Part shown: positions 2 through 15,974 of the stretch, piece after piece
How positions within the stretch are numbered: position 1 is the stretch's first letter
Layout of the letters: each line of letters starts with the position of its first letter
Source of the DNA: Deltaproteobacteria bacterium
GTDB lineage: Bacteria; Bdellovibrionota_F; JAHFAK01
Reading direction: 5' to 3'
Length of the DNA: 15,974 nt
Assembly: GCA_023250585.1 (NCBI GenBank)
Contig: JAHFAK010000047.1
Coordinates: 1 to 15,974, forward strand
Notes under the pieces: model-generated
The model's database searches: none
What the model was told of the DNA's origin: nothing
Seen by the model: the letters and a program-made list of their open reading frames with translations, nothing else
Translations under genes and position numbers: made by a program

Positions 2-3000
2 ACGATAGGCAATGATATATTTGTAGGTAAATATGCCTACATGAGCCCCGAGCAATTGCTGAGAAAAGAACTGACACCAAAATCTGACATATTTTCAGCA
101 GGCATTGTTCTCTATGAACTTATCTTTAAAAAACTTCCTCCGGGACGAATGGGAAATAGAAGTGTCTTAAATTTGGATAACGACAAATCCAGCGTAGATC
201 CCAAGCTTGATAAAAGTTTAATGAACACTCTTCCTCATGAACTAAAAAACATTATAGAGAAGGCAACTCAAACTAATCCAGAGGATCGCTATAAAAATGC
301 ATTAGATTTTCATGATGATTTAATGAGTTTTATTTTTGCCCATAATAAACGTGTTAATTCATTTTCCGCCGCTCATTATATTAAAATGGTATTTGCAGGC
401 GACCTGTATGAGCAGGAGGCAGAAGAAAAAGAATCAGAATCAACAACCTTTAGAGAAACAGTAACGTCATTTATTGAACAAAAGAAAGTAGCAGTTCTTA
501 CTATTAACATGAAACCAATAATGAGAGATACGGATAAGAATGAAACAGTGCTTGGTATGTTTCAAGAAGTGTTGCGAATTGTGCAAAAACACGGAGGAAT
601 TATTTATCGATTACGTGATACTGAACTCATTACGGTCTTTGGTCTTCCTAAAAATACAGAAGATGATGTGTATCGAGCTTTGCTTACAACGTTAGACGTG
701 AAAAACTATGTAAGCGGACTCAAACTCAATTTTAAAGTCGCCCTGACTCAGGCTTTAGACTTTGGTACGGTTATCGTAAACTTTAAAGACGAGGACTTAA
801 ATAATTTTACTATATCTGAAGGTCCTGAGAAGCACGTAAAAGACCTCATTGCTGTTGCATCTACCGGCGACATCTTATGTGGAAATTCAATTGAACATAT
901 GGTAAAAGATGAATTCCGATTTAGTCGAGTTAAACGAAACGATCAGTGGTGCTCAACTTTAATTGATAAAACAGAAAACTCACCTTCGTTGAAGAGTTCA
1001 CATGATTGCCACGAGCAATTTATTAATAGAAAAAAAGAATTGGATGTTGTTACCCATGCATTGCATGAAGTAACTATCGACAAGGGAAAAACGATAACGT
1101 TGACCGGAGAAGCAGGCATTGGAAAAACAGCGCTGATTTATGAAATATGCAGATACGCTGAGCAAGCAAATATTCAAGTCTTTGTAGGAAGATTTCATCC
1201 TTATATAAAAACGCCCTATTCATTCTTTAAACAATTAATTTTAGAACTTTTAAATAACAACAGGAGCAGCAAAGAAATATCTTCAGCCGAGATAAGTGAT
1301 CTCCAGGGTTTCGGGCTAACTCCCATGGAACTCGAATCAATTAAAAGCATTCTTTCCATGAGATATAAAAGTGAGACCTTTGATGCCCTTCCAGGAGAGA
1401 AAAGAAAACTCATCATCTTTATTGCTCTTAAAAAGATCATGCTGGGATGTGCAAATCAGAAGACAATCGTTGTTATTGAAGATATTCATTTAGCTGATGA
1501 ATTATCCCTTGAAGCAGTAGATTCAATCCTTGCCAATGGACCGCTTTCTGATATCCTTTTGATCAAGACTCACCGAACGGAATTCTCGTATCCCTGGAAA
1601 AACCTCGATCTTTCAGAAATAACAATGGAGCTTGAGCCACTTGATGTAAGAACCTTAGGAAATTATTTAGAAACAATAACATTGTGTCCACTAGAAGAAA
1701 ATTCCCTGGCACAAATCTATAGTAAATCATCAGGTAATCCATTATTTGCAGCAGAACTTACCAAAAGCTTACTTGATAATAAAACATTGGAAAAAATTAA
1801 TAACAAGTATGTTTTAGGAAAAGACAAAGATGGTTTTATCGTTCCCGATACCATTTATACTTTACTCGCTTCACGTATCGATGGCCTTCCCAAGCAATTG
1901 AAAGAAATCTTGAGGATTGTATCGATTATCGGGAATGAATTTATCGTTGATACACTTGGTGCTCTTTCGAATAAAGATTCTAATAGTTTACATCATACCC
2001 TCGCCCAATTGCAATCAGAAGGAATGATACGGAAAACAGAGAATGGCTTTACTATAACTCATGCGCTCATGAGAGATGTTGTGTACAAAAACATTCCCAC
2101 TGATACAAGGAAGCAGTTACACAAAAAGACAGCTGATTATCTTCTTGAAAAGTACACTCATGAATTGGAAGAGCATACGAATGAGCTTACGTATCATTAC
2201 AGTAATTCCAACGATGCCCAGAAGGCTTTCTATTATTTAGTTAAGGCTGGAGATGAAGCACACAAGATTTATCTCCTGAACGAAGCACATCGATACTATA
2301 GTGAAGCCATTGTTTGTTTTACCAACAACCTGACGCTCTTTGGAGATAGCTATATTGTGCTTATTGAACTTCATTATAAAGTAGGAATTATCAATCAAAT
2401 TTTGGGAAAACTTCAAGACGCACTTATAATGCTTAACAAAGCAATTAAACTATCAAAAGAACATCAGATTTTTGAGTTTGTTCCTAAGATCTATCATACG
2501 GTAGCTCATGTCTTTAATCTTAAAGGAGATTACAAGAAAGCGCTTTTTTTTATACAAAAGGCAACAACTATTTCAGCCAAAACCGGTAATCGGATAGATA
2601 CGCTTGAATTCTTACGTGAAGAAGCAGATATCTATCGAACAATCCATAATAATACAAAAGCTCAAGAAATATTAGAAAGAGGTTTACAAGAAGTAAGACA
2701 TTTAGGTGATAACTACTTGGAAAGTCGGTACTTAAATAATTTAGGCATTATCTACGGTGATATCAATTATAAAAAGGCATTACTCTATTTTAAAGAGTCA
2801 CTCGTATTCCCTCAGGAAATGAACGATAAACTCGCGCTTTCCGTTGTATTCTCAAATATCTCAGCGCTTTTCTATAAACTTAAAAAATTAGATAAAGCAA
2901 TTAAATATGCAAAAAGAAGCTTGCGGATTTCTTCCGAGATAGAAGATAAACTGGGCGTTTGTCTTAATCTCAATAATTTAGGAGAAATGTATTTAGCACT

Positions 3001-3349
3001 TGATGATCTTGATACAGCACTTCCTTATTTTAAAGAAGGGTTAGTACACTCACGTGAAATGTCCTGGAAGGAAGGAATGGTATCAAATAGCATTCATATG
3101 AGCCTTATCTATGTAATTAAAAACCATGATATATCTCTAACTAAAAAGATATTAGATGAGTCACTCAAAGGAGCTAAAGAATTACACCATCCTGAGCTTA
3201 TTGCAAAAGCCTATCTGATCCAGTCAAAAATCCTTGCTCTTGAAAACAAAGCAGAAGAATCACAGGTAGTTTTCAAAGATGCTCAAAGCTTAATTAAGCA
3301 GAATAATCTCTCACAGGCTGTGCAGGATTTTGAGAGAAAAATTCATTAA
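2..3349 (+). CDS. Ser/Thr protein kinase / cyclase-like / AAA ATPase / TPR protein, 5' end missing
   Basis: The frame is open to the window edge; the first Met (41) is internal, because the 13 codons before it encode the end of a kinase activation segment running into the YMSPEQ form of the APE motif. Residues here count from that Met. Residues 14-28 hold kinase subdomain IX (KSDIFSAGIVLYEL) and NPEDRY (79-84) subdomain XI. About 146-300 resembles a class III nucleotide cyclase domain, including the NTEDDVYRAL region, but the first metal-binding Asp is absent (VAVLTINM), so it is probably inactive. Next comes an ATPase module with Walker A GEAGIGKT (356-363) and Walker B TIVVIEDIH (475-483), then a helical region and TPR-like repeats (about 770-1090). 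The order matches the PknK-like or kinase/cyclase-fusion family of large cytoplasmic signalling proteins, in which the TPRs usually bind partners. Kinase N-lobe and catalytic loop are outside the window, so activity cannot be judged. Confidence 0.9.
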   Translation, partial: TIGNDIFVGKYAYMSPEQLLRKELTPKSDIFSAGIVLYELIFKKLPPGRMGNRSVLNLDNDKSSVDPKLDKSLMNTLPHELKNIIEKATQTNPEDRYKNALDFHDDLMSFIFAHNKRVNSFSAAHYIKMVFAGDLYEQEAEEKESESTTFRETVTSFIEQKKVAVLTINMKPIMRDTDKNETVLGMFQEVLRIVQKHGGIIYRLRDTELITVFGLPKNTEDDVYRALLTTLDVKNYVSGLKLNFKVALTQALDFGTVIVNFKDEDLNNFTISEGPEKHVKDLIAVASTGDILCGNSIEHMVKDEFRFSRVKRNDQWCSTLIDKTENSPSLKSSHDCHEQFINRKKELDVVTHALHEVTIDKGKTITLTGEAGIGKTALIYEICRYAEQANIQVFVGRFHPYIKTPYSFFKQLILELLNNNRSSKEISSAEISDLQGFGLTPMELESIKSILSMRYKSETFDALPGEKRKLIIFIALKKIMLGCANQKTIVVIEDIHLADELSLEAVDSILANGPLSDILLIKTHRTEFSYPWKNLDLSEITMELEPLDVRTLGNYLETITLCPLEENSLAQIYSKSSGNPLFAAELTKSLLDNKTLEKINNKYVLGKDKDGFIVPDTIYTLLASRIDGLPKQLKEILRIVSIIGNEFIVDTLGALSNKDSNSLHHTLAQLQSEGMIRKTENGFTITHALMRDVVYKNIPTDTRKQLHKKTADYLLEKYTHELEEHTNELTYHYSNSNDAQKAFYYLVKAGDEAHKIYLLNEAHRYYSEAIVCFTNNLTLFGDSYIVLIELHYKVGIINQILGKLQDALIMLNKAIKLSKEHQIFEFVPKIYHTVAHVFNLKGDYKKALFFIQKATTISAKTGNRIDTLEFLREEADIYRTIHNNTKAQEILERGLQEVRHLGDNYLESRYLNNLGIIYGDINYKKALLYFKESLVFPQEMNDKLALSVVFSNISALFYKLKKLDKAIKYAKRSLRISSEIEDKLGVCLNLNNLGEMYLALDDLDTALPYFKEGLVHSREMSWKEGMVSNSIHMSLIYVIKNHDISLTKKILDESLKGAKELHHPELIAKAYLIQSKILALENKAEESQVVFKDAQSLIKQNNLSQAVQDFERKIH

Positions 3350-3440: not shown

Positions 3441-4136
3441 ATGAGACGAGTATACGCTCTATTTTTAGTTCTTAGTATGTCTTTATTTATCATCTCTGCC
3501 AAAAAATTCTCCCGTGAGCCTAATGGAGATTTAGATGCATATAATGGGGAAGATGATCCCTTCCAAGATACCTATATTGAGTATATCAGCGTGGATACTC
3601 ATAAGCCTATTCCTACAGGCAATTTAGGGCGTCCTGATGTGTATTTAATTACCACAAATATAAAAACAAAAGAAAAGACTATCAAAAATACAACTCCTCT
3701 TGTTCCGTATGGTCAATTTAATGGAGAAGGTGGTTTCCCAATACCAAGTGGCTATGCTGTTGTTAATAAGGAATATTTCCTCAACTACATTGTTCCATCG
3801 AGTGACAAAGAGCGATTAAGCCAGTGGTTTGCAGCTTCTCCATATCCAACAAAACCTACTGGAGATTTTTTTGCTGAACCAGTCGTAATTTATTCTCCTG
3901 ATGCTATTTTAGGAGAAGATCCCTACGATGCACAGTATCATTTTGAAATAGTGAGCCTGGCATTTTATTTGCCTTTTACCGATGAATATGGTGATGGAAC
4001 GCGTCTCATTATGAAAGCAGATGACCTTCCCGTATATGACTATGATGTTATTCTTCAAGGAGATGCGGATAAACTAACCGATATCAGCTTTAAAAATACT
4101 GTCGTAGTCACTAAGACTATTCTTAATGTGAGATAA
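3441..4136 (+). CDS. Exported protein of unknown function (231 aa)
   Basis: I do not recognise this protein. The chosen ATG follows a strong GGAGGTG site and puts a typical signal peptide at the very N-terminus: MRR, then a hydrophobic run YALFLVLSMSLFIISA, with likely cleavage after ISA. The mature part is about 210 residues, rich in Asp, Tyr and Pro, without cysteines or further membrane segments, so it is probably soluble in the periplasm or outside the cell. The beta-prone C-terminal half ends in alternating hydrophobic residues (VVVTKTILNV). It lies 91 bp after the kinase/TPR gene and converges with the thrombospondin-repeat gene, sharing 14 bp at the 3' ends, so no terminator fits between them. 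A partner or wall-associated role is possible, but nothing in the sequence shows one. Confidence 0.8.
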   Translation: MRRVYALFLVLSMSLFIISAKKFSREPNGDLDAYNGEDDPFQDTYIEYISVDTHKPIPTGNLGRPDVYLITTNIKTKEKTIKNTTPLVPYGQFNGEGGFPIPSGYAVVNKEYFLNYIVPSSDKERLSQWFAASPYPTKPTGDFFAEPVVIYSPDAILGEDPYDAQYHFEIVSLAFYLPFTDEYGDGTRLIMKADDLPVYDYDVILQGDADKLTDISFKNTVVVTKTILNVR

Positions 4137-5970
4137 TCTGAAATGGCCAACATTTCTTATACGGAATAATAAACGTTCTATCGAATATATCGGGTCTCCG
4201 ATTGGTGTTTCGATCATAATTAGTCCCAAATTCAGAATTGATTAAATTATCTAAATAAGAAATGTCGTTGACATTAAAATATTCTAAGTCGTTTTTCGTT
4301 AGGAAATCTATTATTTTATAGCTTTCTGTAAGCCTCAAGAATGAGAAATAATTATTACTATCTCGAGCTTCTTTAACCAACACAGTGCCTATGAGAAAAA
4401 CAATACCTGCAAAATGACCTTTTCCTCTGAGTACTGCAGCAGTGCTTACTACTCTATTTGATGGATTAATTATATCTGGATGTATTCCGCAATGACATGA
4501 GGTTTCACCATTGTATCCTTCAGTACAATCCGCAGGTGTGTATTGTACTGCTCCCGGCATTCCATCATTCTGGAGCTGTATATACGCACACGCATATTCG
4601 AATTGGTCACGGAGTCGTTCGCGATTACGTCGATTACCTACGGTGAAAGAAATAGGCTTACTATTATTATCAAATAACCGATCTTCTAAACGATCATCTA
4701 TCTCGTCTTTTTTATCCTGCATGCAGGTAAGCATAGCTCGGAGCATCTCCTCATATGTTTGCTTAGGCGGTGCCATACCGTAATTTGTGTCTTGTACACC
4801 ATAATAGAGATCAACTAAGACTTCATCACCCAGATCATTAAAAGTATAGAGTTGATTAAATATAGAGCTGGTAACTTTTAATACTACAGCACCCAGGTTA
4901 GTCATACTCCCTCGACTGATAATTTCAGGAACTAAACTTCCTCGTGATATGATACTCCCTCGTGATATAATCTCACCGTTGATGATTATTGATTCAATGT
5001 ATTCTCCTGCAAGGGTATTTCCGGATAAAAGAGGGACATCTATATTTTTAGTATCTACATTATCAATGAGTTGTCCACAATAGCGAAATTCATTATTCTC
5101 TTTTGTATACATTTTATAGCATTCATATGTTTCTTCATCATCAGCACATTCGTAGAGCAAGAAGAGATCTGTGGTCGTACTTTCAACTTCTTCGTTCTTA
5201 TCAGTATTGCCATCATCTTCCCGCTTTCGATCATCATAATCATCACAGACATCACCCTTTTTATCAGCGTCAATGTCAGCCTGATCTGGATTAGTATGAT
5301 AGGGACAATTATCTTCATTATTATTCTTTGTATCACCATCAAGATTGTCATCGCACACATCACCTATGCCATCGCCATCTTGATCCTTTTGATCGGTATT
5401 TTGAATATCTGAGCAATTATCTAAATCATTAGCAATTCCATCTTCATCTTTATCGACATCAGGATTGCAGGTATTTTCATCATTATAAGGGCATTTATCT
5501 TCAGAATCAGGAATACCATCATCGTCCTTATCAGTATCACAGGCATCGCCTTCGGAATCTCCATCTGCATCAGCTTGATCTTTATTTACTGTAGCAGGGC
5601 AATTATCTACGGTATCAAGGATACTATCATTGTCTGAATCCTGACATGCATCTCCAATGCCATTAGGAGGATCATCACTATCATGCTGATCTGGATTTGA
5701 AACTGCAGGACAATTATCATCTGCATCGATAATGCCATCAGCATCGGTGTCTGTTTCTGGATCAGCATAGATTACTTGAGTTGGATCATCTCCCTGAGAA
5801 ATATCACTTTCCGTCGATGCTTTCTCATCATCATCATCTCCTCCACCACACCAGGGAATACCTAATGATAAGATGAGCAATATGATCCCGATTACAATAA
5901 CAATAATTGCTGGGTAGAGACATGATTCTTGTTGATGTTGTTTCTTGTGCCACTGAAAATACTGTAACAT
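4123..5970 (-). CDS. Membrane-anchored thrombospondin type 3 repeat protein (615 aa)
   Basis: A hydrophobic segment at about 20-39 (AIIVIVIGIILLILSLGIPW) follows a short charged N-terminus; the next Cys lacks a proper lipobox, so a membrane anchor with the rest outside the cytoplasm is likeliest. Residues about 73-245 are thrombospondin type 3 repeats: repeated DxDxDGIxDxxDNCP units separated by DQxDxDGDGIGDxCD units, with regularly spaced Cys. In this family the Asp side chains bind Ca2+ and the Cys pair up, giving a rigid calcium-dependent stalk. The C-terminal 350 residues are unfamiliar; they contain three copies of IISRGS (334-355), a Cys-rich stretch near 461-494 and a hydrophobic patch near 517-532. 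There is no Shine-Dalgarno sequence before the ATG, and a palindrome abuts it. A cell-surface adhesion or structural role is inferred. Start confidence is moderate. Confidence 0.85.
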   Translation of the reverse strand: MLQYFQWHKKQHQQESCLYPAIIVIVIGIILLILSLGIPWCGGGDDDDEKASTESDISQGDDPTQVIYADPETDTDADGIIDADDNCPAVSNPDQHDSDDPPNGIGDACQDSDNDSILDTVDNCPATVNKDQADADGDSEGDACDTDKDDDGIPDSEDKCPYNDENTCNPDVDKDEDGIANDLDNCSDIQNTDQKDQDGDGIGDVCDDNLDGDTKNNNEDNCPYHTNPDQADIDADKKGDVCDDYDDRKREDDGNTDKNEEVESTTTDLFLLYECADDEETYECYKMYTKENNEFRYCGQLIDNVDTKNIDVPLLSGNTLAGEYIESIIINGEIISRGSIISRGSLVPEIISRGSMTNLGAVVLKVTSSIFNQLYTFNDLGDEVLVDLYYGVQDTNYGMAPPKQTYEEMLRAMLTCMQDKKDEIDDRLEDRLFDNNSKPISFTVGNRRNRERLRDQFEYACAYIQLQNDGMPGAVQYTPADCTEGYNGETSCHCGIHPDIINPSNRVVSTAAVLRGKGHFAGIVFLIGTVLVKEARDSNNYFSFLRLTESYKIIDFLTKNDLEYFNVNDISYLDNLINSEFGTNYDRNTNRRPDIFDRTFIIPYKKCWPFQIISH

Positions 5971-6112: not shown

Positions 6113-7984
6113 TTACACTGATTCATGAATGGAATCTTCTCGTCTTTCTGATTCTTCTTCGAACAGAGAATGCGGAAGTATCTCAATTGGTACACTGCCT
6201 GCTAATCCCTTGGGTAATAAGCTTACACCAAGGAGTTCGCAACGAGTTCTGATTCTTTCCTCTTCAAAGTGACTCGTAACAAGAATCGAATGTTTTCCAA
6301 TATTCAATCGTTCAATGAGATCAAGGCCTGTTTCTTGCTCTCCCAGTAATTCATAATCACTGAGAAGATAGTATGACTCCCACTTCTGATTCTCTAACAA
6401 AAAAGACAGAGCTTTTGCCGACGTAAAATGCATATGCATGACATTGTATCGAGTAAAGTCACTCTCTCGAAACCTCCGCTTCCAAACTTCATGTATCGAT
6501 GTATCATCATCCAAAATAAGCATCATGGTATTGGGAAAAATGGTAAGTTTCGGCAAAAACCATACGGGAGCTTTAGCTCGTTTGAAGGACAATTTCAGTG
6601 TTGTTCCCTGTCCTTCTTCTGAATCAATCGTGATATCTCCTCCCCATCTCTTCATGGTTTCTTTTGCATGGAAGAGCCCTAATCCTGAGCCTCCAGCTTT
6701 TCCGAAACTAAAGTTATGATCACACACCTTGGCAATAATATTTTGTGGAATACCTCTTCCGTTGTCTTCAATGGTCAGCAGAATCTTTGTGTCTTCAGCA
6801 GATACAGTAAGAACAACTTTACCCTCTTCATGACATGCCTCAACTGCATTATTGATTATATTTGAAATCATTCGCTTAAATTCCACCGGCTCTATCTCTA
6901 CAAAGGCTCCATACGATGATTGATCGCACTGGTCTTCTATAGAAATTCCCGATCGATCTCGATATTGCGTTCGCTTTTCAGAAACTATGCTTTCAAGGAG
7001 ACTTGGAAGTAATTCAATGCTTATCTTATGTGCTCGAACGGAAATAGATTGAGCATCTTTTTTCTCTTGCTTCATGAGCGATAGATTATTCGCTATATCT
7101 TGAATTCGCTTTACTGAATTTCGGAGTAATATCCGCTCTCCTTCTGGTATTGCTTCAATATGCCTCACCAATATATTCAAAGCTGCTAAGGGCGATCGTA
7201 TGTCGTGTGCTACCTGGGCAGAGATCTGCTCTATAGCAACGTATTTTTCAGTTTTGAGTTGTATTTCGTATTCTCTCAAAAGTGCTTTTTTAAGATCTTT
7301 AGACACCATATGAATAGTTTCTGCAACTTGGTTGAGTTCAGTAGACCCTAATGATGTTGGAATATTAACAGAATCAGTCATACCACGTAGATATTCACGA
7401 ATGTTTGGAATTGCACCTGTCAGTTCCATAATGGGTTTTACAACTGATTTTGAAAGAAGAGTACGACTCGTCATAAAAAGAAAAAGGAGTGAAAATAACA
7501 AAATACATAAGGCAAATAGAAGTGAACTCTTAAGAAAAGATGCCATAGAGAGATCAACCGGCTGAGCAAAGAAAATTGTTCCCAGACCTTCTCTCAAAAT
7601 ACTAATTTGTCTTGACACCACAACGAAACCATTTTCTAAGAAATCAGACTTAGATTGTTCAAAGTGTGAACGAAATATTTCTTTAGCCTTGTTACTCTCA
7701 TAGATCGCAGAGCCGTCTTTACGATAAAGCCCTATTTCTAAATCCTTATTTTCTTTCACTATCGATTGGCCCCGCATTAGAGCTGCATAGAACTTATCAT
7801 TAACAAACTCTTGGACAAGCAACGGAAGCTGTCCATCTATTAAACCATTGAGTCTTTGTTTTGCAGAGGCAATAACCTGATGTTTGTGTGCATTGCTTAA
7901 AATGAAGTAAAATCCAAAAGTTATGATGATAGAGGTCGAGATCGCAACTATAAAAATTCGGTTAAGTTGACTAGCGAGTCGCAT
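6113..7984 (-). CDS. Hybrid sensor histidine kinase with C-terminal receiver domain (623 aa)
   Basis: Two membrane segments (about 9-30 and 150-172) enclose a roughly 120-residue extracytoplasmic sensor region. A HAMP-like linker follows, then the kinase core: H box VAHDIRSPLAALN with phosphorylatable His260, N box NIINNAVEA, G1 box DNGRG (407-411) and G2 box GGSGLGL (431-437). After a linker, residues about 487-605 form a receiver domain with the acidic pocket DDD (492-494), likely phosphorylated Asp543, Thr570/Ser571 and Lys592. There is no Hpt domain, so this receiver may regulate the kinase rather than pass phosphate on. The ATG overlaps the 3' end of the permease/binding-protein gene by 14 bp and follows GGAAAGG, indicating translational coupling. 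The sigma-54 activator encoded nearby at 10229-11590 is the obvious partner. Its overall family is clear; the ligand is unknown. Confidence 0.92.
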   Translation of the reverse strand: MRLASQLNRIFIVAISTSIIITFGFYFILSNAHKHQVIASAKQRLNGLIDGQLPLLVQEFVNDKFYAALMRGQSIVKENKDLEIGLYRKDGSAIYESNKAKEIFRSHFEQSKSDFLENGFVVVSRQISILREGLGTIFFAQPVDLSMASFLKSSLLFALCILLFSLLFLFMTSRTLLSKSVVKPIMELTGAIPNIREYLRGMTDSVNIPTSLGSTELNQVAETIHMVSKDLKKALLREYEIQLKTEKYVAIEQISAQVAHDIRSPLAALNILVRHIEAIPEGERILLRNSVKRIQDIANNLSLMKQEKKDAQSISVRAHKISIELLPSLLESIVSEKRTQYRDRSGISIEDQCDQSSYGAFVEIEPVEFKRMISNIINNAVEACHEEGKVVLTVSAEDTKILLTIEDNGRGIPQNIIAKVCDHNFSFGKAGGSGLGLFHAKETMKRWGGDITIDSEEGQGTTLKLSFKRAKAPVWFLPKLTIFPNTMMLILDDDTSIHEVWKRRFRESDFTRYNVMHMHFTSAKALSFLLENQKWESYYLLSDYELLGEQETGLDLIERLNIGKHSILVTSHFEEERIRTRCELLGVSLLPKGLAGSVPIEILPHSLFEEESERREDSIHESV

Positions 7985-10016
7985 AGCCTTTCCAACTGGT
8001 GATAGTTGTAGGTGATACCAACGAATCCAATCGTAAACCTTTTGTCATTAGTTCAAGAAGCACCATATTTCTTGAAGTAGAACCATCGTTTTCAAACGTA
8101 ACTTTACCTGTTGTATCTATATATGAACTTCCTCTGAGTTTTTTTGAAAGTAATAGATTATCGACCGTTTGATATTTTTCGATAAGACTTCGTAAATGTA
8201 TAAGAAACGCATAGGGAAGAATATCGGGACCATCAGAAATATACGAAGGTAATTTCCCCGTTAGTTTTTCAAATCGTTTGGTTAGTACTGATTTTTTTTG
8301 AGTTACCATTTTGGGATGCCAACGGTGAATATAATAATAGTTATTTCCTTGTGGCTTTTTTCCTTCCAAAAAGAAAATATCAGGTCTACCATCAGTTGGG
8401 CCCCATCCATCAGCTCCAAGATAAGTGAGTTGCCCAAATCCCTGTTCGTTAAGAGCACGAAGTATCTCTGCAACTCTCGGTTTAAGATCTGGAATAAATA
8501 CAAGGTCTGGTTCAAAAGATCTCATTGAATTAAAGAGTTGTCCAAAATCAATCCGGTCTGAAAGATAATCATATTGTTGAATTTCTATAATTTTGGTTTT
8601 TATCTTTAAGATTTTAAGAAAAGTAGTTGAAAGTCCATCGCTATAAGGATCAGAACGATTAGTAAGAACAAGAACTTTTCTCGGCTTAAATCGTGATGTA
8701 ACAATGTTTACTAGCATTGCAGCTTGAAAATCATCATTCCAAGAAAGTTGAAAAACAGTGCCTTTTAATTTAGAAATTTCAACGTTTGTAGCATTAGGAG
8801 TAACAAATAGTTTTCCAGACTCTTGATACATTCTTCCTATTGGCAGCGCAACACTACTAAAAGAATGTCCTATAGTAAGGAGATGGTTTCGGTCGGCGAG
8901 TGCTACTTGGGCATTTTTTGCAGCCACAACTACCTGGGCTTTGTCATCTTGAGAAATAACTTCAATGTTTCTACCGAGAAGCCCTCCATGCTCATTTGTC
9001 TCTTTGGCGAAGGCAATCACTGCTAAACTTATTCCTTTTGCAAGAAATGGCATGATCCCCGTATAAGATCCTGGAACATAAATGTGAAGAGGTTCTTTGT
9101 TTGCAGCTTGCACTTGTGATATGAAGAAAAAAACTATAAGGAAAGCTAACCTTTTTTTAAAAATCATCGAGAAACGTTTTTCAATGAGAGGAAAAATAGC
9201 TGCAATACCTAGCATTACTGCGGAGATTTCTTGTTTGAGCGATAATGGCTCATTCATTACAAAAAGACTGATGAGTACAGCTGTCAATGGATCAACGTAT
9301 GATACAAATGGGCTGAGTTCATGATTGAGTCTCAGAGCTCTCCACCAGAGTAGAAATGGGGTAAGTGTAAATAAGACTCCTAGTACAATAATTCCTGTCA
9401 GTTCGCTAATATTAATCAAAGCAAATGAATTTACAGAGAAAGGAATAAGACAAAAAGCTGCAAATAACGATTGAATAAAAAGGGACAAACTCGGAGATAG
9501 AACCTTTGTACCCTGTTCAATTATTGGAATTAACCCAAATAGTATTCCTCCAAGTAGTGCTAACAGATATCCCAATTGATTTGACGACGCTGCCGTAGGT
9601 TGAGTAAGAAGTAAAAGAATAGCTACAATAGATATAAGTGAACTGATGGCATTCGCTCTATGAATTTGAGTTCGAAATACAAATCTTCTTATAATGATAG
9701 TAAATATAGGCCCAGAGTAAAAGATCGCGACACACATACTTACCGGTGCAAGTTTAAAAGAAGAGAATAAACACACCATGTTTAAAAAAATCGCAGCTGA
9801 AGTGGCAATGCTTGAAAGAAGAGACATAGGTGTAAGATTTTTGAATGATTGTTTATTTATAACTAGAAAACTGAACGTTGTGATGGCCGTGATTGCCATC
9901 CTATAAAAGACAAGATCTACAGAAGTTAATATAGATGGTTTAACAACGAGAGATGTACTCCCAAAAAGAATAAAAGCAATAAAAGCGATAAGATAAGCTT
10001 TTCCTTTGCTATTCAC
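7971..10016 (-). CDS. EamA/DMT-family permease fused to a LivK-type periplasmic binding protein (681 aa)
   Basis: Residues 1-279 are two EamA repeats with about ten membrane segments, the drug/metabolite transporter fold that often exports amino acids or other metabolites. Residues 284-304 (MIFKKRL, a hydrophobic run, then QVQA) look exactly like a signal peptide, and 306-681 form a type I periplasmic binding protein of the branched-chain amino acid/amide family (LAVIAFAKETNEHGGLLGRNIEV, IGHSFSSVALPIG). With an even number of permease helices, the extra segment places the binding domain outside the inner membrane. The GTG start is chosen because AGGAG lies 8 nt upstream, EamA homology begins there, and the upstream in-frame ATG (10082) lies inside the sigma-54 promoter. 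The reading frame is continuous, with no sign of a frameshift. It is co-transcribed and overlapped with the sensor kinase, so the binding domain is probably a ligand sensor. The substrate is unknown. Confidence 0.88.
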   Translation of the reverse strand: MNSKGKAYLIAFIAFILFGSTSLVVKPSILTSVDLVFYRMAITAITTFSFLVINKQSFKNLTPMSLLSSIATSAAIFLNMVCLFSSFKLAPVSMCVAIFYSGPIFTIIIRRFVFRTQIHRANAISSLISIVAILLLLTQPTAASSNQLGYLLALLGGILFGLIPIIEQGTKVLSPSLSLFIQSLFAAFCLIPFSVNSFALINISELTGIIVLGVLFTLTPFLLWWRALRLNHELSPFVSYVDPLTAVLISLFVMNEPLSLKQEISAVMLGIAAIFPLIEKRFSMIFKKRLAFLIVFFFISQVQAANKEPLHIYVPGSYTGIMPFLAKGISLAVIAFAKETNEHGGLLGRNIEVISQDDKAQVVVAAKNAQVALADRNHLLTIGHSFSSVALPIGRMYQESGKLFVTPNATNVEISKLKGTVFQLSWNDDFQAAMLVNIVTSRFKPRKVLVLTNRSDPYSDGLSTTFLKILKIKTKIIEIQQYDYLSDRIDFGQLFNSMRSFEPDLVFIPDLKPRVAEILRALNEQGFGQLTYLGADGWGPTDGRPDIFFLEGKKPQGNNYYYIHRWHPKMVTQKKSVLTKRFEKLTGKLPSYISDGPDILPYAFLIHLRSLIEKYQTVDNLLLSKKLRGSSYIDTTGKVTFENDGSTSRNMVLLELMTKGLRLDSLVSPTTITSWKGYATR

Positions 10017-10024
10017 TAATGATT

Positions 10025-10029
10025 CTCCT
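10025..10029 (-). promoter_or_regulatory. Ribosome binding site that sets the GTG start at 10016
   Basis: AGGAG on the minus strand lies 8 nt before the GTG. Together with the sigma-54 promoter at 10078-10093 it rules out the longer in-frame reading from the ATG at 10082. Confidence 0.75.
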
Positions 10030-10077: not shown

Positions 10078-10093
10078 AGCAAACTTCATGCCA
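10078..10093 (-). promoter_or_regulatory. Sigma-54 (-24/-12) promoter of the permease-binding protein/kinase operon
   Basis: On the minus strand the sequence is TGGCATGAAGTTTGCT. Every defined position fits the sigma-54 consensus TGGCAYRNNNNTTGCW, with the GG and GC at the required spacing. Transcription would start near 10067, leaving a leader of about 51 nt before the GTG at 10016. The gene immediately upstream encodes a sigma-54 activator, which makes the assignment much stronger. Confidence 0.85.
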
Positions 10094-10122: not shown

Positions 10123-10198
10123 ATTCATGTATTCCAATGCTTACAGAATGTATTCATGTTCATCAGCAATATCTACCATTCATTCTATAATTTCATGT
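10123..10198 (-). promoter_or_regulatory. Candidate enhancer (activator-binding) region upstream of the sigma-54 promoter
   Basis: On the minus strand ACATGAA occurs three times (10198-10192, 10159-10153, 10130-10124). A dyad TACA-TTC-TGTA lies at 10152-10142 within AATACATTCTGTAA (10154-10141). ATGTATTC (plus strand) is repeated at 10127 and 10148, 21 bp or two helical turns apart. The block lies roughly 55-130 bp upstream of the predicted transcription start, within or near the range used by NtrC-type activators. The region is AT-rich, so chance repeats are possible. Confidence 0.35.
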
Positions 10199-10228: not shown

Positions 10229-11590
10229 TCATTTTAATCCATAGTCTTTTATTTTTCTGGTGAGTGTTGGAGCTGATGTTTTAAGCAGCTCTGCGCAGGA
10301 ACTTTGAGTTTTTGTCTCGTGTAATGCACACTCAATAATTTCCTTCTCTATGTTCTCTAATACTGACTTAAGACCCATGGTTTTTGCCTTTGTTAAAAGC
10401 TCTTGAGCAAGATTTCCAGTTTTGGAATGGGGAAAAGTTTCTGTATACAATTGAGAAGGAATATCCCGTGGGGTAATCAGTCCATCTCGTTTCATCGCAA
10501 TCACCAGCTTGATACAATTCTCTAATTCTCGTACATTTCCCGGCCACGAGTAGGCTCGTAAAACCTTTCGCACTTCTTCGGTTAGGAGTACACGAGTATT
10601 CTGTATAAAATGATCCAGTAAAAGATCAATATCGCCTCGTCGCTCTCGTAACGGAGGAATGAGTACGCTCATTCCCTTCAGACGATGGTAGAGATCAAGT
10701 CGAAAGCGCTTCGCTCTCACAAGCTCTTCTAAATTTTCATTCGTTGCTGAAATGATCCTACAATTCACCTGGCGGATATGATGCGATCCTATCCGTTCTA
10801 CCTCACCTCCCTGAAGTACCCTCAGTAATTTCTTCTGCGTATCGAGGCTCAACGTCCCCACTTCATCAAGAAACACATCTCCTTCATGCGCTAACTCAAA
10901 TTTTCCTATGCGATCTTCAGTGGCTCCCGTAAACGAACCCTTCTTGTGTCCAAACAGTACCGATTCCATAAGAGCATCAGGAATTGCTGCACAATTGACT
11001 ACTATAAATGGCCGATGTGGATTTCCAAGGTCATGAATGTAGCGGGCAATTAATTCTTTTCCTACACCGCTTTCTCCTTCGATAAGAATAGTAATATGTG
11101 TATTGTCTCTCAGATAATATAGGTTGCCTAAAATAGTCAGTAATCGAGGATCTTCAGTAATAAATGAATTTCCAAGAATAGAGACTCGATCTCCCGAGCT
11201 TTCTTTCTCTGAAGTACTATGTTCGGCAATGATTTTAATTCGTTGAATAATATCCTGATCTGGATGAGCCTTTGATACAAAATCAACAGCGCCTCGTGAG
11301 AGTGCATGCTGAATGGTTTCAGCATCATCACGGCCACTGAGCATAACTACATGAGCGTGGGACTGAGCATGCCTGATGCGGGAGAGCAGTTCAAAGCCTG
11401 CATTCGTATCTTTCCCTAATCCTATATCGAGGAGGATAATATGATAGTCTTTTTCGGTAATATATTTTTGCGCTTCGATAGTTGTATAGGCTTGATCTAC
11501 GAAAAAATCCTGCGATAGGTAGCGAGCATACACAGTATTTAAGGAAACATCATCGTCAACAATAAGAAGAGATAATCGTTCTCCCTCCAT
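10229..11590 (-). CDS. NtrC-type sigma-54-dependent response regulator (453 aa)
   Basis: Three domains are complete. The receiver (about 6-120) has the acidic pocket VDDD, likely phosphorylated Asp55, Ser85 and Lys107. The AAA+ domain (about 140-375) has Walker A GESGVGKE (172-179), the sigma-54 contact loop as GSFTGA (218-223) instead of the usual GAFTGA, Walker B DVFLDE (238-243), arginine-finger region RFRLDLYHRL and the NVRELEN sensor II motif. A Fis-type helix-turn-helix closes the protein (about 412-453). It would bind enhancer DNA and hydrolyse ATP to open sigma-54 promoters once phosphorylated. The ATG at 11590 is chosen because AGGAGG lies 9 nt upstream and the receiver homology starts at once; a longer reading to 11653 would add 21 unlikely residues. 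Two sigma-54 promoters lie nearby, at 10078 and 12186. The partner kinase is probably the one at 6113-7984. Confidence 0.94.
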   Translation of the reverse strand: MEGERLSLLIVDDDVSLNTVYARYLSQDFFVDQAYTTIEAQKYITEKDYHIILLDIGLGKDTNAGFELLSRIRHAQSHAHVVMLSGRDDAETIQHALSRGAVDFVSKAHPDQDIIQRIKIIAEHSTSEKESSGDRVSILGNSFITEDPRLLTILGNLYYLRDNTHITILIEGESGVGKELIARYIHDLGNPHRPFIVVNCAAIPDALMESVLFGHKKGSFTGATEDRIGKFELAHEGDVFLDEVGTLSLDTQKKLLRVLQGGEVERIGSHHIRQVNCRIISATNENLEELVRAKRFRLDLYHRLKGMSVLIPPLRERRGDIDLLLDHFIQNTRVLLTEEVRKVLRAYSWPGNVRELENCIKLVIAMKRDGLITPRDIPSQLYTETFPHSKTGNLAQELLTKAKTMGLKSVLENIEKEIIECALHETKTQSSCAELLKTSAPTLTRKIKDYGLK

Positions 11591-12185: not shown

Positions 12186-12201
12186 TGGCATATTAATTGC
12201 A
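12186..12201 (+). promoter_or_regulatory. Sigma-54 (-24/-12) promoter of the secreted-protein operon
   Basis: TGGCATATTAATTGCA fits TGGCAYRNNNNTTGCW at every defined position. Transcription would start near 12212, leaving about 55 nt of leader before the ATG at 12267. It is intergenic, faces the operon and has a consensus IHF site upstream. The nearest activator gene is encoded about 600 bp away on the other strand. Confidence 0.87.
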
Positions 12202-12266: not shown

Positions 12267-12737
12267 ATGAAAAAATATAATTTTACATTTTTAGTTTTTT
12301 TTATTGTTATTGGTGCATTGCTCTCAGAGGTGTATGCTCAGGAATGTAATTATGGGATGGAGATATCCAGCGAAGATATTAATGAATCCTGTAATAGAAT
12401 ACAAAAAGCAGCAATTGATACTTTTAATCGGTCATCAGAAACCCCTCGGTTTGATAGTTTATCGTACTTAGGAGTAAAGACTTACGATCAAGGCTGTAAA
12501 TGGGTTCTCACTTTTCAACTGCAATTCTGCATTCGAATCAAAGATAAAGGAAAAGAATCTGCTCAGTGTGTAGAGGAAAGAAATTCGGTTTACACAATTA
12601 CGATCAACCTCCATGCAGATGGTAGCGCTGGGTGGCATGTTGATTCAACGAAGGGAGAAGATCTTATCACCTTTTTTAACGAACTGATCGGGATATATTT
12701 TTCTGAATGTACTGTATGTAAAACGGAGAAAAAATAA
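12267..12737 (+). CDS. Exported Cys-rich protein of unknown function (156 aa), first gene of the sigma-54 operon
   Basis: I do not recognise it. An N-terminal signal peptide is clear: MKK, then FTFLVFFIVIGALLS, with likely cleavage after VYA. The mature protein of about 132 residues has seven Cys (27, 42, 77, 88, 101, 148, 151), the last two as CTVC near the C-terminus. It is probably disulphide-bonded and acts in the periplasm or outside. The middle alternates hydrophobic and polar residues (KWVLTFQLQFCIRI, SVYTITINLHADGSAGWHVDST), suggesting a beta sheet. A GGAAG site precedes the ATG. Its stop codon shares one base with the next start (TAATG), so translation is coupled. As the first gene behind the sigma-54 promoter it is likely induced together with the rest. 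An odd number of Cys leaves one free for a partner. Confidence 0.8.
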   Translation: MKKYNFTFLVFFIVIGALLSEVYAQECNYGMEISSEDINESCNRIQKAAIDTFNRSSETPRFDSLSYLGVKTYDQGCKWVLTFQLQFCIRIKDKGKESAQCVEERNSVYTITINLHADGSAGWHVDSTKGEDLITFFNELIGIYFSECTVCKTEKK

Positions 12738-14068
12738 TGAAAAAAACTACGTTTTTACTTTTGACTATATTTCTTTTTTCTTTTTCTTCTTCAGTTCTCA
12801 GCGAAGTAAAGGTGATAGAAGTTTTTAGTGGGCAAGAAAAGTTATTAGACTTAAATATTGATGCTAATTTAATTCGGTTAAAGCCAGGTAATTTACGATC
12901 GACTAACCATGATATTACATTGATTGATCCATTATTATTTGAAGGTTCAAAGTTAGTCCTTTTCTATACGATGTATAATTTGACTGACTACTATGATATT
13001 GAAGTTGGAGGTAATACTTCTTTTCCATCAGAGATTGAGACTATTGAGGACAATGGAGCAAAAGTTTATAAACGAACAATTACGCTTCCTCCTCATATTG
13101 AAAACTTTTCAATAACCATAAAACCAAAGAAACGCGAATTCTATCCATGGATATCTATTAATTCAGGTAGCGTACTTTATGCTATACGACTGTATATATC
13201 TGATGGCCCATTAGTAGATCGTTTTTATCGAGAAGTAGTTCCTTATGCGCGAGGACTTTATGAAGATATTTTTCTCGATGTGATTGCTGTAGAAAATATA
13301 AAAGAGATTGAAGAATTATTTTCTGATCTAGCAAAATATAGTAGCCAAACAAATTATACATTAGAAAGAGAAAAGATTGAGGCTGTCATTACTCGAATGA
13401 AAGAAGAAATTAATCTAAATAGCCAGTTCTCATCAATTTTCTCTCCATGGGTTCAATTATTAGAAAAAATACTGATTTCGTCTAAAAACAGTTCAATTAA
13501 TATTTCCAAACTCAAGGAAAACATGGCTGAAATAGAATCAAATCTTCTTCAAACAAAGAATGATATCTCTCAATTAAAGACTCAGATAGAGGCGAGGTTA
13601 GCAGAAAAAACAGATAAAGGGATCATTCTCTCAAAAGACCTCTATAAAATATATAATGCTCTCACTTTTTTTGACACCTCTAAAGAGATAATAAAATTCT
13701 CTCACACAAAAGCTATGTATGAAGAAACTATGAATGGAGTGAAAAAACAATTACAAACACTTAATCTTACGCCCGATGAAATAGCATCAAAAGATATTAC
13801 CACTATTTTAAAAGATAAGCAGCTAACCCTGACTGCTCGTAAATATTTCACTGCCATTAAAACACTTGCACACATGAATATCCCAAAAATCTACGTTCTC
13901 CCCGCTGGGGTATTATTCGAAAATGTAAACGACAATGCTGAAGCACAACAAGCCAAGATGACTAATTACTTTAAACTAAAAGGGTTAGATCCTGAGCTTG
14001 TAATTGTTTATCAAAGTTATTTTTTTAAATACATTGAATCTGTTGGAAAAACAAAACATCTCGATTAA
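12737..14068 (+). CDS. Exported protein with beta-rich N-terminus and coiled coil (443 aa)
   Basis: This family is unknown to me. Residues 1-22 form a signal peptide (MKKTTFLLLTIFLFSFSSSVLS, cleavage before EV). Residues about 24-155 look beta-rich, with repeated short hydrophobic strands and several Asn and Tyr. About 157-250 is helical. About 253-292 (ISKLKENMAEIESNL onward to QIEARLAEK) has coiled-coil character. The remainder is helical and ends at HLD. No cysteine is present, in contrast to the first gene. The ATG overlaps the previous stop by one base and the next gene starts two bases after its stop, so the genes form one transcript. The order of a beta domain followed by a long coiled coil suits an extended, self-associating or scaffold-type envelope protein; that function is inference only. 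Confidence 0.82.
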   Translation: MKKTTFLLLTIFLFSFSSSVLSEVKVIEVFSGQEKLLDLNIDANLIRLKPGNLRSTNHDITLIDPLLFEGSKLVLFYTMYNLTDYYDIEVGGNTSFPSEIETIEDNGAKVYKRTITLPPHIENFSITIKPKKREFYPWISINSGSVLYAIRLYISDGPLVDRFYREVVPYARGLYEDIFLDVIAVENIKEIEELFSDLAKYSSQTNYTLEREKIEAVITRMKEEINLNSQFSSIFSPWVQLLEKILISSKNSSINISKLKENMAEIESNLLQTKNDISQLKTQIEARLAEKTDKGIILSKDLYKIYNALTFFDTSKEIIKFSHTKAMYEETMNGVKKQLQTLNLTPDEIASKDITTILKDKQLTLTARKYFTAIKTLAHMNIPKIYVLPAGVLFENVNDNAEAQQAKMTNYFKLKGLDPELVIVYQSYFFKYIESVGKTKHLD

Positions 14069-14070
14069 GT

Positions 14071-15228
14071 ATGAAGATTAATAAAATCTACCTATTACTA
14101 TTCATAATTAATTATGTAGTAGGCACGAGTCTTTTTGCAGCTTCTTATACCAAAGAGCAAGAAAAAGCCTTAAGCGAAAAAAAGAAACGACTCTCTCAAG
14201 CCCAATCAGAATATGAATCAGTGCGTGAAGAGGAAACAGAGCAGCGGTACGTACTTTCATATTTTGTCCCGTATATTGATGCAGCAATAAGAATTAAAGA
14301 ATTGGTAGATGAAGATATTAAAGAGATTGAAAAATCGCTAGGAACTTTGGATAAAATTCCAGATATTGGAGAGATAAACACTATGTCTCCTGATAGAATA
14401 TCAAATTTTTATATCGAAGCAGTTCAAAAGCTCAATACTCTTGAATTAAGTTGTTATTCAGTGCGAAGCATTACGGTTAATACCCTCCCACGCTTGAGTC
14501 GATTACAAGATATCCATGGGAAATATATAAAAGAGCAACAATTGATCGATAAACATATGCCTTCTGTTCGAGGTGTTATTGGGAAATTCACTGACTATGT
14601 AAAAATACATAAAGACTTCGTCTTAGAGCAATCTAAAAAATGTAAAGACTTAGAAGAAACAATACAAACTGCGCGGGAGAAGATGTTCACATTTTGGATA
14701 CAATCCATCGCTCAGAAGAATGCAAATGTAGTTCTTGAATTTGAGAATATGCTCAAAGTAAACGACATGATCAAACTCATCTGGGATATTTATATGAATG
14801 CTTTTATGGATATTTTTGATTTCATACGCCGAAAGAATTTTTATCGTGCTGAACGTGAATTACGTAAAGTAAAACTTCTTAAAGAAACATTACGAAAAAT
14901 TGTAGTACCTTATCTTATTTCCCAATCAGTTCTTTCAGCTCTTGATGCAATTGATAAGGATTTTGAAAAATCATTTGAAGACAAGAGACAGGAAATAGGA
15001 GCCATTCCAAGAAAAGATTGGTTACCTCAACGATTCGAGCGTCTCAAGAAAGAATATGAATATGTCAAAACAAAATATGGAGAGAATCATAAGTCAGTCC
15101 AAAGAATGAAAAAAGAGATAGATACCGCACTTCAAGGAAACGCTTCGTACATGAAAGAAGCCCATATATATAGCTTACTCGATTATGCTGAACAAGATTA
15201 TATCAATTTATATGAAAAAGCCAATTAA
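14071..15228 (+). CDS. Exported alpha-helical coiled-coil protein (385 aa)
   Basis: This protein is unrecognised. The signal peptide is MKINKIYLLLFIINYVVGTS with cleavage likely after LFA, before ASYTKEQ. The mature protein is almost wholly predicted helix and very rich in Glu and Lys, with a coiled-coil-like start (residues about 26-60) and further heptad-like stretches around 250-385. The few Cys are scattered. It begins two bases after the previous stop without its own ribosome binding site, so it depends on translational coupling. Its final codons overlap the next gene by 17 bp. It does not look like an outer-membrane efflux protein or flagellar protein, because it lacks the repeated signature motifs of those families. 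A helical periplasmic or surface assembly factor is possible. Confidence 0.82.
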   Translation: MKINKIYLLLFIINYVVGTSLFAASYTKEQEKALSEKKKRLSQAQSEYESVREEETEQRYVLSYFVPYIDAAIRIKELVDEDIKEIEKSLGTLDKIPDIGEINTMSPDRISNFYIEAVQKLNTLELSCYSVRSITVNTLPRLSRLQDIHGKYIKEQQLIDKHMPSVRGVIGKFTDYVKIHKDFVLEQSKKCKDLEETIQTAREKMFTFWIQSIAQKNANVVLEFENMLKVNDMIKLIWDIYMNAFMDIFDFIRRKNFYRAERELRKVKLLKETLRKIVVPYLISQSVLSALDAIDKDFEKSFEDKRQEIGAIPRKDWLPQRFERLKKEYEYVKTKYGENHKSVQRMKKEIDTALQGNASYMKEAHIYSLLDYAEQDYINLYEKAN

Positions 15229-15974
15229 TAAGATAAAAGTATTAGAAAGATTAATTGCAGTAGCACTCATTATGGTTCAATCTCAACCTACTTTTAGCAA
15301 TGATTTTCTTTTTGACCGTGTTTCTGATCGTTTTCCTGATCTTTGTTCAGGAGTTCATGTATGTAGCGTGGGTGATTACAAAATTTGTGATTGCGGAGGA
15401 GAAGATGTTCCTGAAACAACTAATAACGAGCCTGGGCAAGTAAAGGGCAGCTCACCGAAAAATAATAGTGATAAAAAAACATCATTGTCTCATGATGATG
15501 ATACTTTTAAAGATGATGATTCACGTGAAGAAGGATCTCAATCATCGAAAGAACCTCAAGGAAAATCATCGGGAAAACGCAACCAAGAACAAGAAGCAAC
15601 CTATATAGCAGAAATTAAAACTATTGAAGCAAAAAATGAGAATATCGTTAAAGCAAAACAAATAAGTCAGGAGCACATACAAGAAAATAAAGGAACATTA
15701 AAAAATGAAAGTAGTCGACTCAATGTTTTTAATAACGTATCTCTATCTGGACAACAAATAACTTCAAATTTTCAACACACCGATGAAACAATACTAAAAG
15801 TTCGACAAAATACAAACTCCTTCAAAAGCTCTTTTGAAGGATCGTCTTCTATCTTAGATAGTGAGCTCGAATCATTAAAAAGAACTTTTCAAGATACACA
15901 AAACGAAGCACTCATAGGTATGCGTAAAAGCTATGTCAATTCCTTCAAAGAGAATTTGTCTCGCGCATCCAATA
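15212..15974 (+). CDS. Exported protein with Cys cluster and long helical region, 3' end missing (254 aa visible)
   Basis: The frame starts at the ATG at 15212, inside the end of the previous gene, and is open to the last base. Residues 1-29 look like a signal peptide (MKKPINKIKVLERLIAVALIMVQS, cleavage near FSN), though its hydrophobic run is short. A cluster of four Cys follows (45, 51, 59, 61; CSGVHVC, CDC), then a disordered, charged stretch of about 70 residues with two DDD runs (95-97, 101-103) and many Ser, Lys and Glu. From about 128 it becomes helical and Gln/Asn/Ser-rich, resembling a long rod. I cannot place it in a family. An in-frame Met further in (15272) would lose most of the signal peptide, so the overlapping start is preferred. 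The remaining domains lie beyond the window. Confidence 0.75.
   Translation, partial: MKKPINKIKVLERLIAVALIMVQSQPTFSNDFLFDRVSDRFPDLCSGVHVCSVGDYKICDCGGEDVPETTNNEPGQVKGSSPKNNSDKKTSLSHDDDTFKDDDSREEGSQSSKEPQGKSSGKRNQEQEATYIAEIKTIEAKNENIVKAKQISQEHIQENKGTLKNESSRLNVFNNVSLSGQQITSNFQHTDETILKVRQNTNSFKSSFEGSSSILDSELESLKRTFQDTQNEALIGMRKSYVNSFKENLSRASN

Follow-up and report, generated by a model that had tools for sequence, protein, structure and literature searches.

An EamA permease and a LivK-type periplasmic binding domain were found joined in one reading frame in a stretch of 15,974 nucleotides of Deltaproteobacteria bacterium DNA (contig JAHFAK010000047.1), hereafter the window. The window is the whole of one contig (C102) of a 2.24-Mb, 164-contig metagenome-assembled genome (MAG). 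The fusion gene is coupled to a gene for a hybrid sensor kinase, a promoter element and a presumed regulator binding site lie ahead of it, and paralogous cassettes are present in the same genome. The reading that we favour, with a probability of about 0.45, is that the fusion protein unites an exporter with the tethered receptor of a two-component system under autoregulation, which would sense the amino-acid-like product that is exported.

The fusion gene and its junction

The fusion gene (7971..10016, minus strand) runs from a GTG start at 10016 to a stop at 7971-7973, with 681 codons (681 amino acids) uninterrupted by a stop, and is preceded by an AGGAG ribosome binding site (10025..10029, minus strand). 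The initial annotation had reported an in-frame EamA and LivK-type fusion with the same ends but without naming the strand, and this was borne out. Pfam matches to EamA (E value 5.6e-15, two stretches) and to Peripla_BP_6 (PF13458; E value 7e-25) were obtained in the same frame, both above the curated cut-offs. The Peripla_BP_6 match was full length, covering residues 317-657 and positions 9-339 of the 343 in the profile. A separate scan placed the two EamA repeats (PF00892) at 9606-10001 and 9192-9575, each over the curated cut-off. The EamA half (residues 1-283; 9168..10016, minus strand) has two repeats and ten predicted helices, and the second repeat ends at approximately residue 275, so that the permease is complete ahead of the junction at residues 283/284.

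The junction reads ...PLIEKRFS-MIFKKRLAFLIVFFFISQVQA-ANKEPL. The segment MIFKKRLAFLIVFFFISQVQA (residues 284-304; 9105..9167, minus strand) begins with an internal methionine and, followed by ANK, was judged by eye to be a normal signal peptide. Ten helices were predicted before residue 283, with low confidence, and an eleventh at 284-305. As this eleventh helix begins with KKR after ten helices, the LivK-type domain (residues 305-681; 7974..9104, minus strand) would sit outside. The predicted topology thus supports the suggestion of the initial annotation that a signal-peptide-like join could place the binding domain there.

AlphaFold modelling with LivK relatives, in line with the structure prediction that the initial annotation had proposed, gave a confident, LivK/LivJ-like model of the LivK half and low confidence for the EamA half (predicted local distance difference test score, pLDDT, of 40). 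The LivK half had the type I binding-protein fold in a Foldseek search, with Thermotoga maritima LivK (3td9) as the best match (template modelling score of 0.82 by target length) and LivJ and Atu2422 also at the top; its nearest solved structures were leucine and amino-acid binding proteins. The pocket positions ATN 409-411, Y458 and D536 (DG) align with the amino-acid binders Atu2422 and T. maritima LivK, and the predicted ligand of the LivK half is an amino acid. In LivJ, Ser79, Ala100, Thr102, Tyr150 and Tyr202 were reported from docking to contact isoleucine (PMC6983066).

The junction also allows another outcome, which is possible but which we consider to have well under even odds. Signal peptidase might cut after VQA, leaving a free periplasmic LivK and an EamA protein with a short tail. 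The fusion would then only fix a 1:1 ratio of the two products, and LivK would act like the soluble LivK of the sister cassettes. The junction reads like an entire signal peptide in which the cleavage site is acceptable, and sister cassettes and distant relatives use separate LivK genes bearing signal peptides. However, the segment lies within the protein, behind ten helices, where cutting is uncommon, and we infer that the fusion protein stays uncleaved.

Kinase, regulator and paralogous cassettes

In a tree of LivK proteins, one branch separated 13 kinase-adjacent proteins, including that of the window, from 44 ABC-importer proteins (support 79/78; 82% of bootstrap trees; 0 of 500 shuffles as low). 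The window LivK was placed near that of Halobacteriovorax (L146), where the operon consists of an amino acid permease, a dehydrogenase, LivK and a kinase, although several branches of the tree are long and the exact placement is unsure. Pfam detected no LivH/M permease and no LivG/F ATPase among the window proteins, and the window does not have the adjacent genes of a Liv ABC importer. A separate LivK gene elsewhere in the genome (C48, L072) is followed by permease-like and ATPase-like genes. Because the LivK proteins in its clade are kinase partners, the binding domain is, on the evidence of the tree, a receptor component and not a binding protein of the ABC type attached to a permease, and the initial annotation, which had described it in the latter way, was corrected on this point.

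The kinase gene (6113..7984, minus strand) encodes a hybrid sensor histidine kinase with two transmembrane helices, a short periplasmic sensor, an H-box, a HATPase domain and a C-terminal receiver-like domain. Its start at 7984 overlaps the 3' end of the fusion gene by 14 nucleotides, and this makes coupled translation of the two genes plausible, as had been claimed from the sequence initially. The pairing of a binding-protein gene with a kinase that has a periplasmic sensor recurs across related loci, and the sensor regions are alike among several of the LivK-coupled kinases. Contact between LivK and the kinase would be expected, with control of the kinase by the ligand. The regulator gene (10229..11590, minus strand) encodes an NtrC-type sigma-54 response regulator with a receiver, an AAA+ domain and a Fis helix-turn-helix. 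The Walker A motif is at residue 172 and the GSFTGA loop, which is needed for sigma-54 activation, is at residue 218. A route of phosphotransfer from kinase to regulator would complete the pathway.

The gap between the regulator and the fusion gene contains an exact sigma-54 -24/-12 element, TGGCAT-N5-TTGCT (TGGCATGAAGTTTGCT; 10078..10093, minus strand), and a second exact element (12186..12201, plus strand) lies 66 nucleotides before a divergent operon. The strict TGGCAC pattern gave 8 matches against 4.8 expected, which was not significant. The TGGCAY form, to which the pattern was widened after this first scan, gave 5 matches against 0.78 expected (0 of 200 shuffles), with both exact sites in promoter positions. 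The homologous gaps of two paralogous cassettes, C5 and C153, have a sigma-54 element at the same place. Upstream of the element is a presumed regulator binding site of 29 bp (10125..10153, minus strand), a direct repeat of two ATACAT-like half sites at a spacing of 21 bp, which is kept in the three cassettes most alike. When up to three mismatches were allowed, the motif was found at exactly three sites genome-wide, each of them in one of these paralogous cassettes, and the reversed control was found at none; as the motif was written from these same three cassettes, the information lies in its absence elsewhere and in its conservation amid diverged flanks. The divergent operon (12267..15974, plus strand) encodes predicted secreted proteins with no Pfam or NCBIfam match, and these are possible output genes of the circuit.

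Paralogous kinases are encoded on four other contigs of the genome, and their operons keep the order of NtrC-type regulator, cargo, binding protein and kinase where the contig is long enough. The cargo and binding proteins differ: a beta-eliminating lyase, a methyltransferase and an ABC_sub_bind protein on C5; an MFS transporter, a radical SAM protein and two SBP_bac_5 proteins on C153; a methyltransferase, a short-chain dehydrogenase and LivK on C64; and only SBP_bac_3 with the kinase on C101. The kinase family was surveyed in 80 named loci (L073-L152) from Elusimicrobiota, Bdellovibrionota and other MAGs. A binding-protein gene was present no more than two genes upstream of 47 of the 85 kinase genes, a lower bound as only four binding-protein families were modelled, and was directly adjacent in 34; SBP_bac_5 was the commonest family. 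Among 86 other operon proteins, Pfam identified YcaO (9), radical SAM (9), methyltransferases (6), alpha/beta hydrolases (6) and MFS (5). In a Deltaproteobacteria MAG (L225), an EamA-LivK gene pair is preceded in its operon by the gene of an ATP-grasp protein that matches the C-terminal domain of an amino-acid ligase weakly and below threshold. From their gene content, such cassettes would look like systems that make, export and sense modified peptides or amino acids. In an incomplete literature collection, no paper was found that describes this class of regulator, binding-protein and hybrid-kinase cassettes.

It is unlikely, in our estimation, that EamA is only a passenger, or a resistance or overflow pump of the regulon, with LivK sensing an environmental amino acid unrelated to the EamA substrate. 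The cargo of the sister cassettes is very varied, and nothing ties the EamA substrate directly to the LivK ligand. Nevertheless, EamA stands directly ahead of LivK in at least three lineages, namely the window, L225 and Bdellovibrionales bacterium RBG_16_40_8 (L115), and in the window the two are covalently joined.

Several further observations were made on these loci. Operons of the kinase family in Elusimicrobiota and Bdellovibrionota MAGs often join YcaO or radical SAM enzymes with the oligopeptide-type binding protein SBP_bac_5, and sometimes with an MFS exporter; these could possibly be an undescribed class of modified-peptide signalling cassettes. On C34, a paralogous kinase is present only as fragments in two frames (L066:3459-3843) and is probably a pseudogene. 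A response regulator without a receiver is located at the start of C153 (L065:1-123), where the preceding sequence reads like a transposase end, and an insertion may have cut the gene. The EamA protein of L225 (L225:4616-6136), directly ahead of LivK, has a C-terminal extension of approximately 220 residues; the radical-SAM-like look of this tail and of an upstream gene in L226 was not confirmed by Pfam. Elsewhere in the window, positions 2-3349 encode a Ser/Thr kinase - AAA - TPR signalling protein (1115 amino acids, with its start off the contig), and positions 4123-5970 a predicted surface protein with four thrombospondin type 3 repeats. No RNA families or tRNAs were found in the window, and a 16S search for the organism gave no match.

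Origin of the join

The in-frame fusion is real in the sequence, while the identity of the frame in the living organism rests on one MAG assembly. The fusion was not seen in approximately 920 other genomes examined. No close relative of it was found among the genome contigs searched, in the same class (one other genome), in 98 relatives or in the two phyla carrying the kinase family, and a plasmid search returned no place covering 80% of the fusion. The best relative of the LivK half (G367, 37%) is an orphan at a contig end, without signal peptide, EamA or kinase, and gives no verdict on the fusion. LivK matches with open frames near 630-700 amino acids (among L206-L209 and L214) were inspected and none was an EamA fusion. 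Three or more transmembrane helices were predicted in none of the 160 binding-protein open reading frames across all loci.

The unfused arrangement was found in two distant relatives. In L115, EamA, LivK and a homologous kinase follow in the same order, each with a gene of its own; the EamA and LivK genes, in different frames, share 13 nucleotides, and LivK has its own AGGAG site. In L225, EamA and LivK are separate genes with an overlap of 11 nucleotides, and the contig ends before any position for a kinase. Separate genes in related genomes, with a stop at the junction, had been named initially as the finding that would speak against a fusion: these two distant loci are indeed split there, and no close relative was available. 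Because L115 and L225 keep EamA and LivK as separate overlapping genes, the fusion is best taken, from this comparison, to derive from an older pair of overlapping genes.

This comparison also bears on whether the fusion is the product of a single frameshift, in which a change of one base, as an error or as a recent natural event, joined two overlapping genes with little functional meaning. With one A fewer in the run GAAAAACG, the EamA frame would end in ENVSR and a stop exactly at an ATGA start/stop overlap, and a frameshift, natural or erroneous, therefore stays a live rival. Separate overlapping genes are the rule in L115 and L225, the fusion comes from a single MAG, and in this MAG the paralogous kinase of C34 is broken across two frames. 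On the other hand, short-read assemblies seldom have errors in five-base runs, the reading frame is open to either side, and the internal ATG lacks a preceding ribosome site, which L115 has; this last point is weak evidence, as a ribosome site precedes only 37% of the first ATGs of this genome. We consider a frameshift product rather improbable, and a sequencing or assembly error as the origin of the fusion is unlikely. The fusion is real in the sequence, rare and probably derived.

Proposed coupling of export to sensing

According to the reading of a tethered exporter and receptor, the EamA half would pump out a metabolite resembling an amino acid. LivK would once have had a gene of its own, and its former signal peptide, now the eleventh helix, would cross the membrane outward again and anchor the LivK domain on the periplasmic side of the inner membrane. 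LivK with bound ligand would touch the co-translated hybrid kinase at the short periplasmic sensor of the latter, comparable to LuxP-LuxQ or TorT-TorS, and the kinase would signal to the NtrC-type regulator. Once phosphorylated, the regulator would activate the sigma-54 promoters of its own fusion and kinase operon and of the divergent operon. Such an autoregulated circuit would report, and may amplify, the outside level of the EamA export product. The tether would keep exporter and receptor at 1:1 in the inner membrane and would prevent the receptor from leaving.

The recurrence of the EamA-LivK-kinase order, unfused, in L115 and of EamA-LivK in L225 is in favour of this reading. Several points weigh against it. 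The VQA|A site has the look of a cleavable one, and cutting there would release LivK; not all EamA proteins are exporters; the EamA half is without a confident model, AlphaFold being uninformative there; the kinase is a hybrid with a receiver domain and yet no phosphotransfer protein is nearby; the fusion occurs once, in a single MAG without close relatives; and the window operon has no biosynthetic gene. For this last reason the idea of a self-made ligand is borrowed from the relatives. The proposal that the protein senses what it transports was strengthened by the cassette architecture, the autoregulatory promoter, the amino-acid- and peptide-modifying cargo of relatives and the amino-acid-ligase-like gene near one EamA-LivK pair, and is still an inference. 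A self-made exported signal of the quorum-sensing type might be suspected, with candidate enzymes in relatives only and no synthase in the window operon.

Kinases driven by binding proteins are established in LuxP-LuxQ, TorT-TorS and XylFII-LytS (PMC6321045). As in the window, the gene of a periplasmic binding protein is coupled in these systems to that of a sensor kinase, and LuxO was computed to resemble the window regulator as an NtrC-type sigma-54 activator. LuxQ is a hybrid like the window kinase. The window system differs in the LivK family of its binding protein, in the fusion to a permease, and in having neither a known autoinducer nor a phosphotransfer protein nearby. The exporters YdeD, YddG and RhtA (EamA/DMT) share the two EamA repeats and ten predicted helices, to which the window protein adds a C-terminal extracytoplasmic LivK domain. 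The branched-chain amino acid binding proteins LivK and LivJ share the fold and the amino-acid pocket motifs, whereas the window lacks adjacent Liv ABC permease and ATPase genes. The chimeric ABC importers OpuA and GlnPQ also link a binding domain covalently to a membrane transporter via a membrane segment, but the window has a secondary permease, presumably an exporter, and a binding domain of the kinase-coupled group. By analogy with these importers, LivK might capture a solute for TRAP-like import by EamA, which we regard as very improbable, as the LivK half is not in the importer group, its coupled partner is a kinase-regulator pair instead, and the EamA proteins described are for the most part linked with the export or metabolism of amino acids (PMC8707732).

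The fusion would be a new form of binding-protein-dependent two-component signalling, and no paper on an EamA-binding-protein fusion was found in the same incomplete literature collection, in agreement with the initial annotation, which knew of no described example. A bolder version, which we hold to be doubtful, is a self-listening exporter in which one polypeptide releases a small signal and carries its receptor. It would be the LivK branch of a large undescribed binding-protein/hybrid-kinase/NtrC class in Elusimicrobiota, Bdellovibrionota and their relatives. The cargo of this class (YcaO, radical SAM, amino-acid ligase-like, methyltransferase, exporters) would make and export modified peptide or amino-acid signals. 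Fusion of a binding protein to an EamA/DMT permease, with a link to a kinase, would couple export to sensing in a new way. We know of no signalling molecule in the phyla carrying the cassettes. The cassette family would offer a genome-readable route to candidate signals, in which a single operon holds synthesis, export, receptor and promoter. This family may be a larger finding than the fusion itself.

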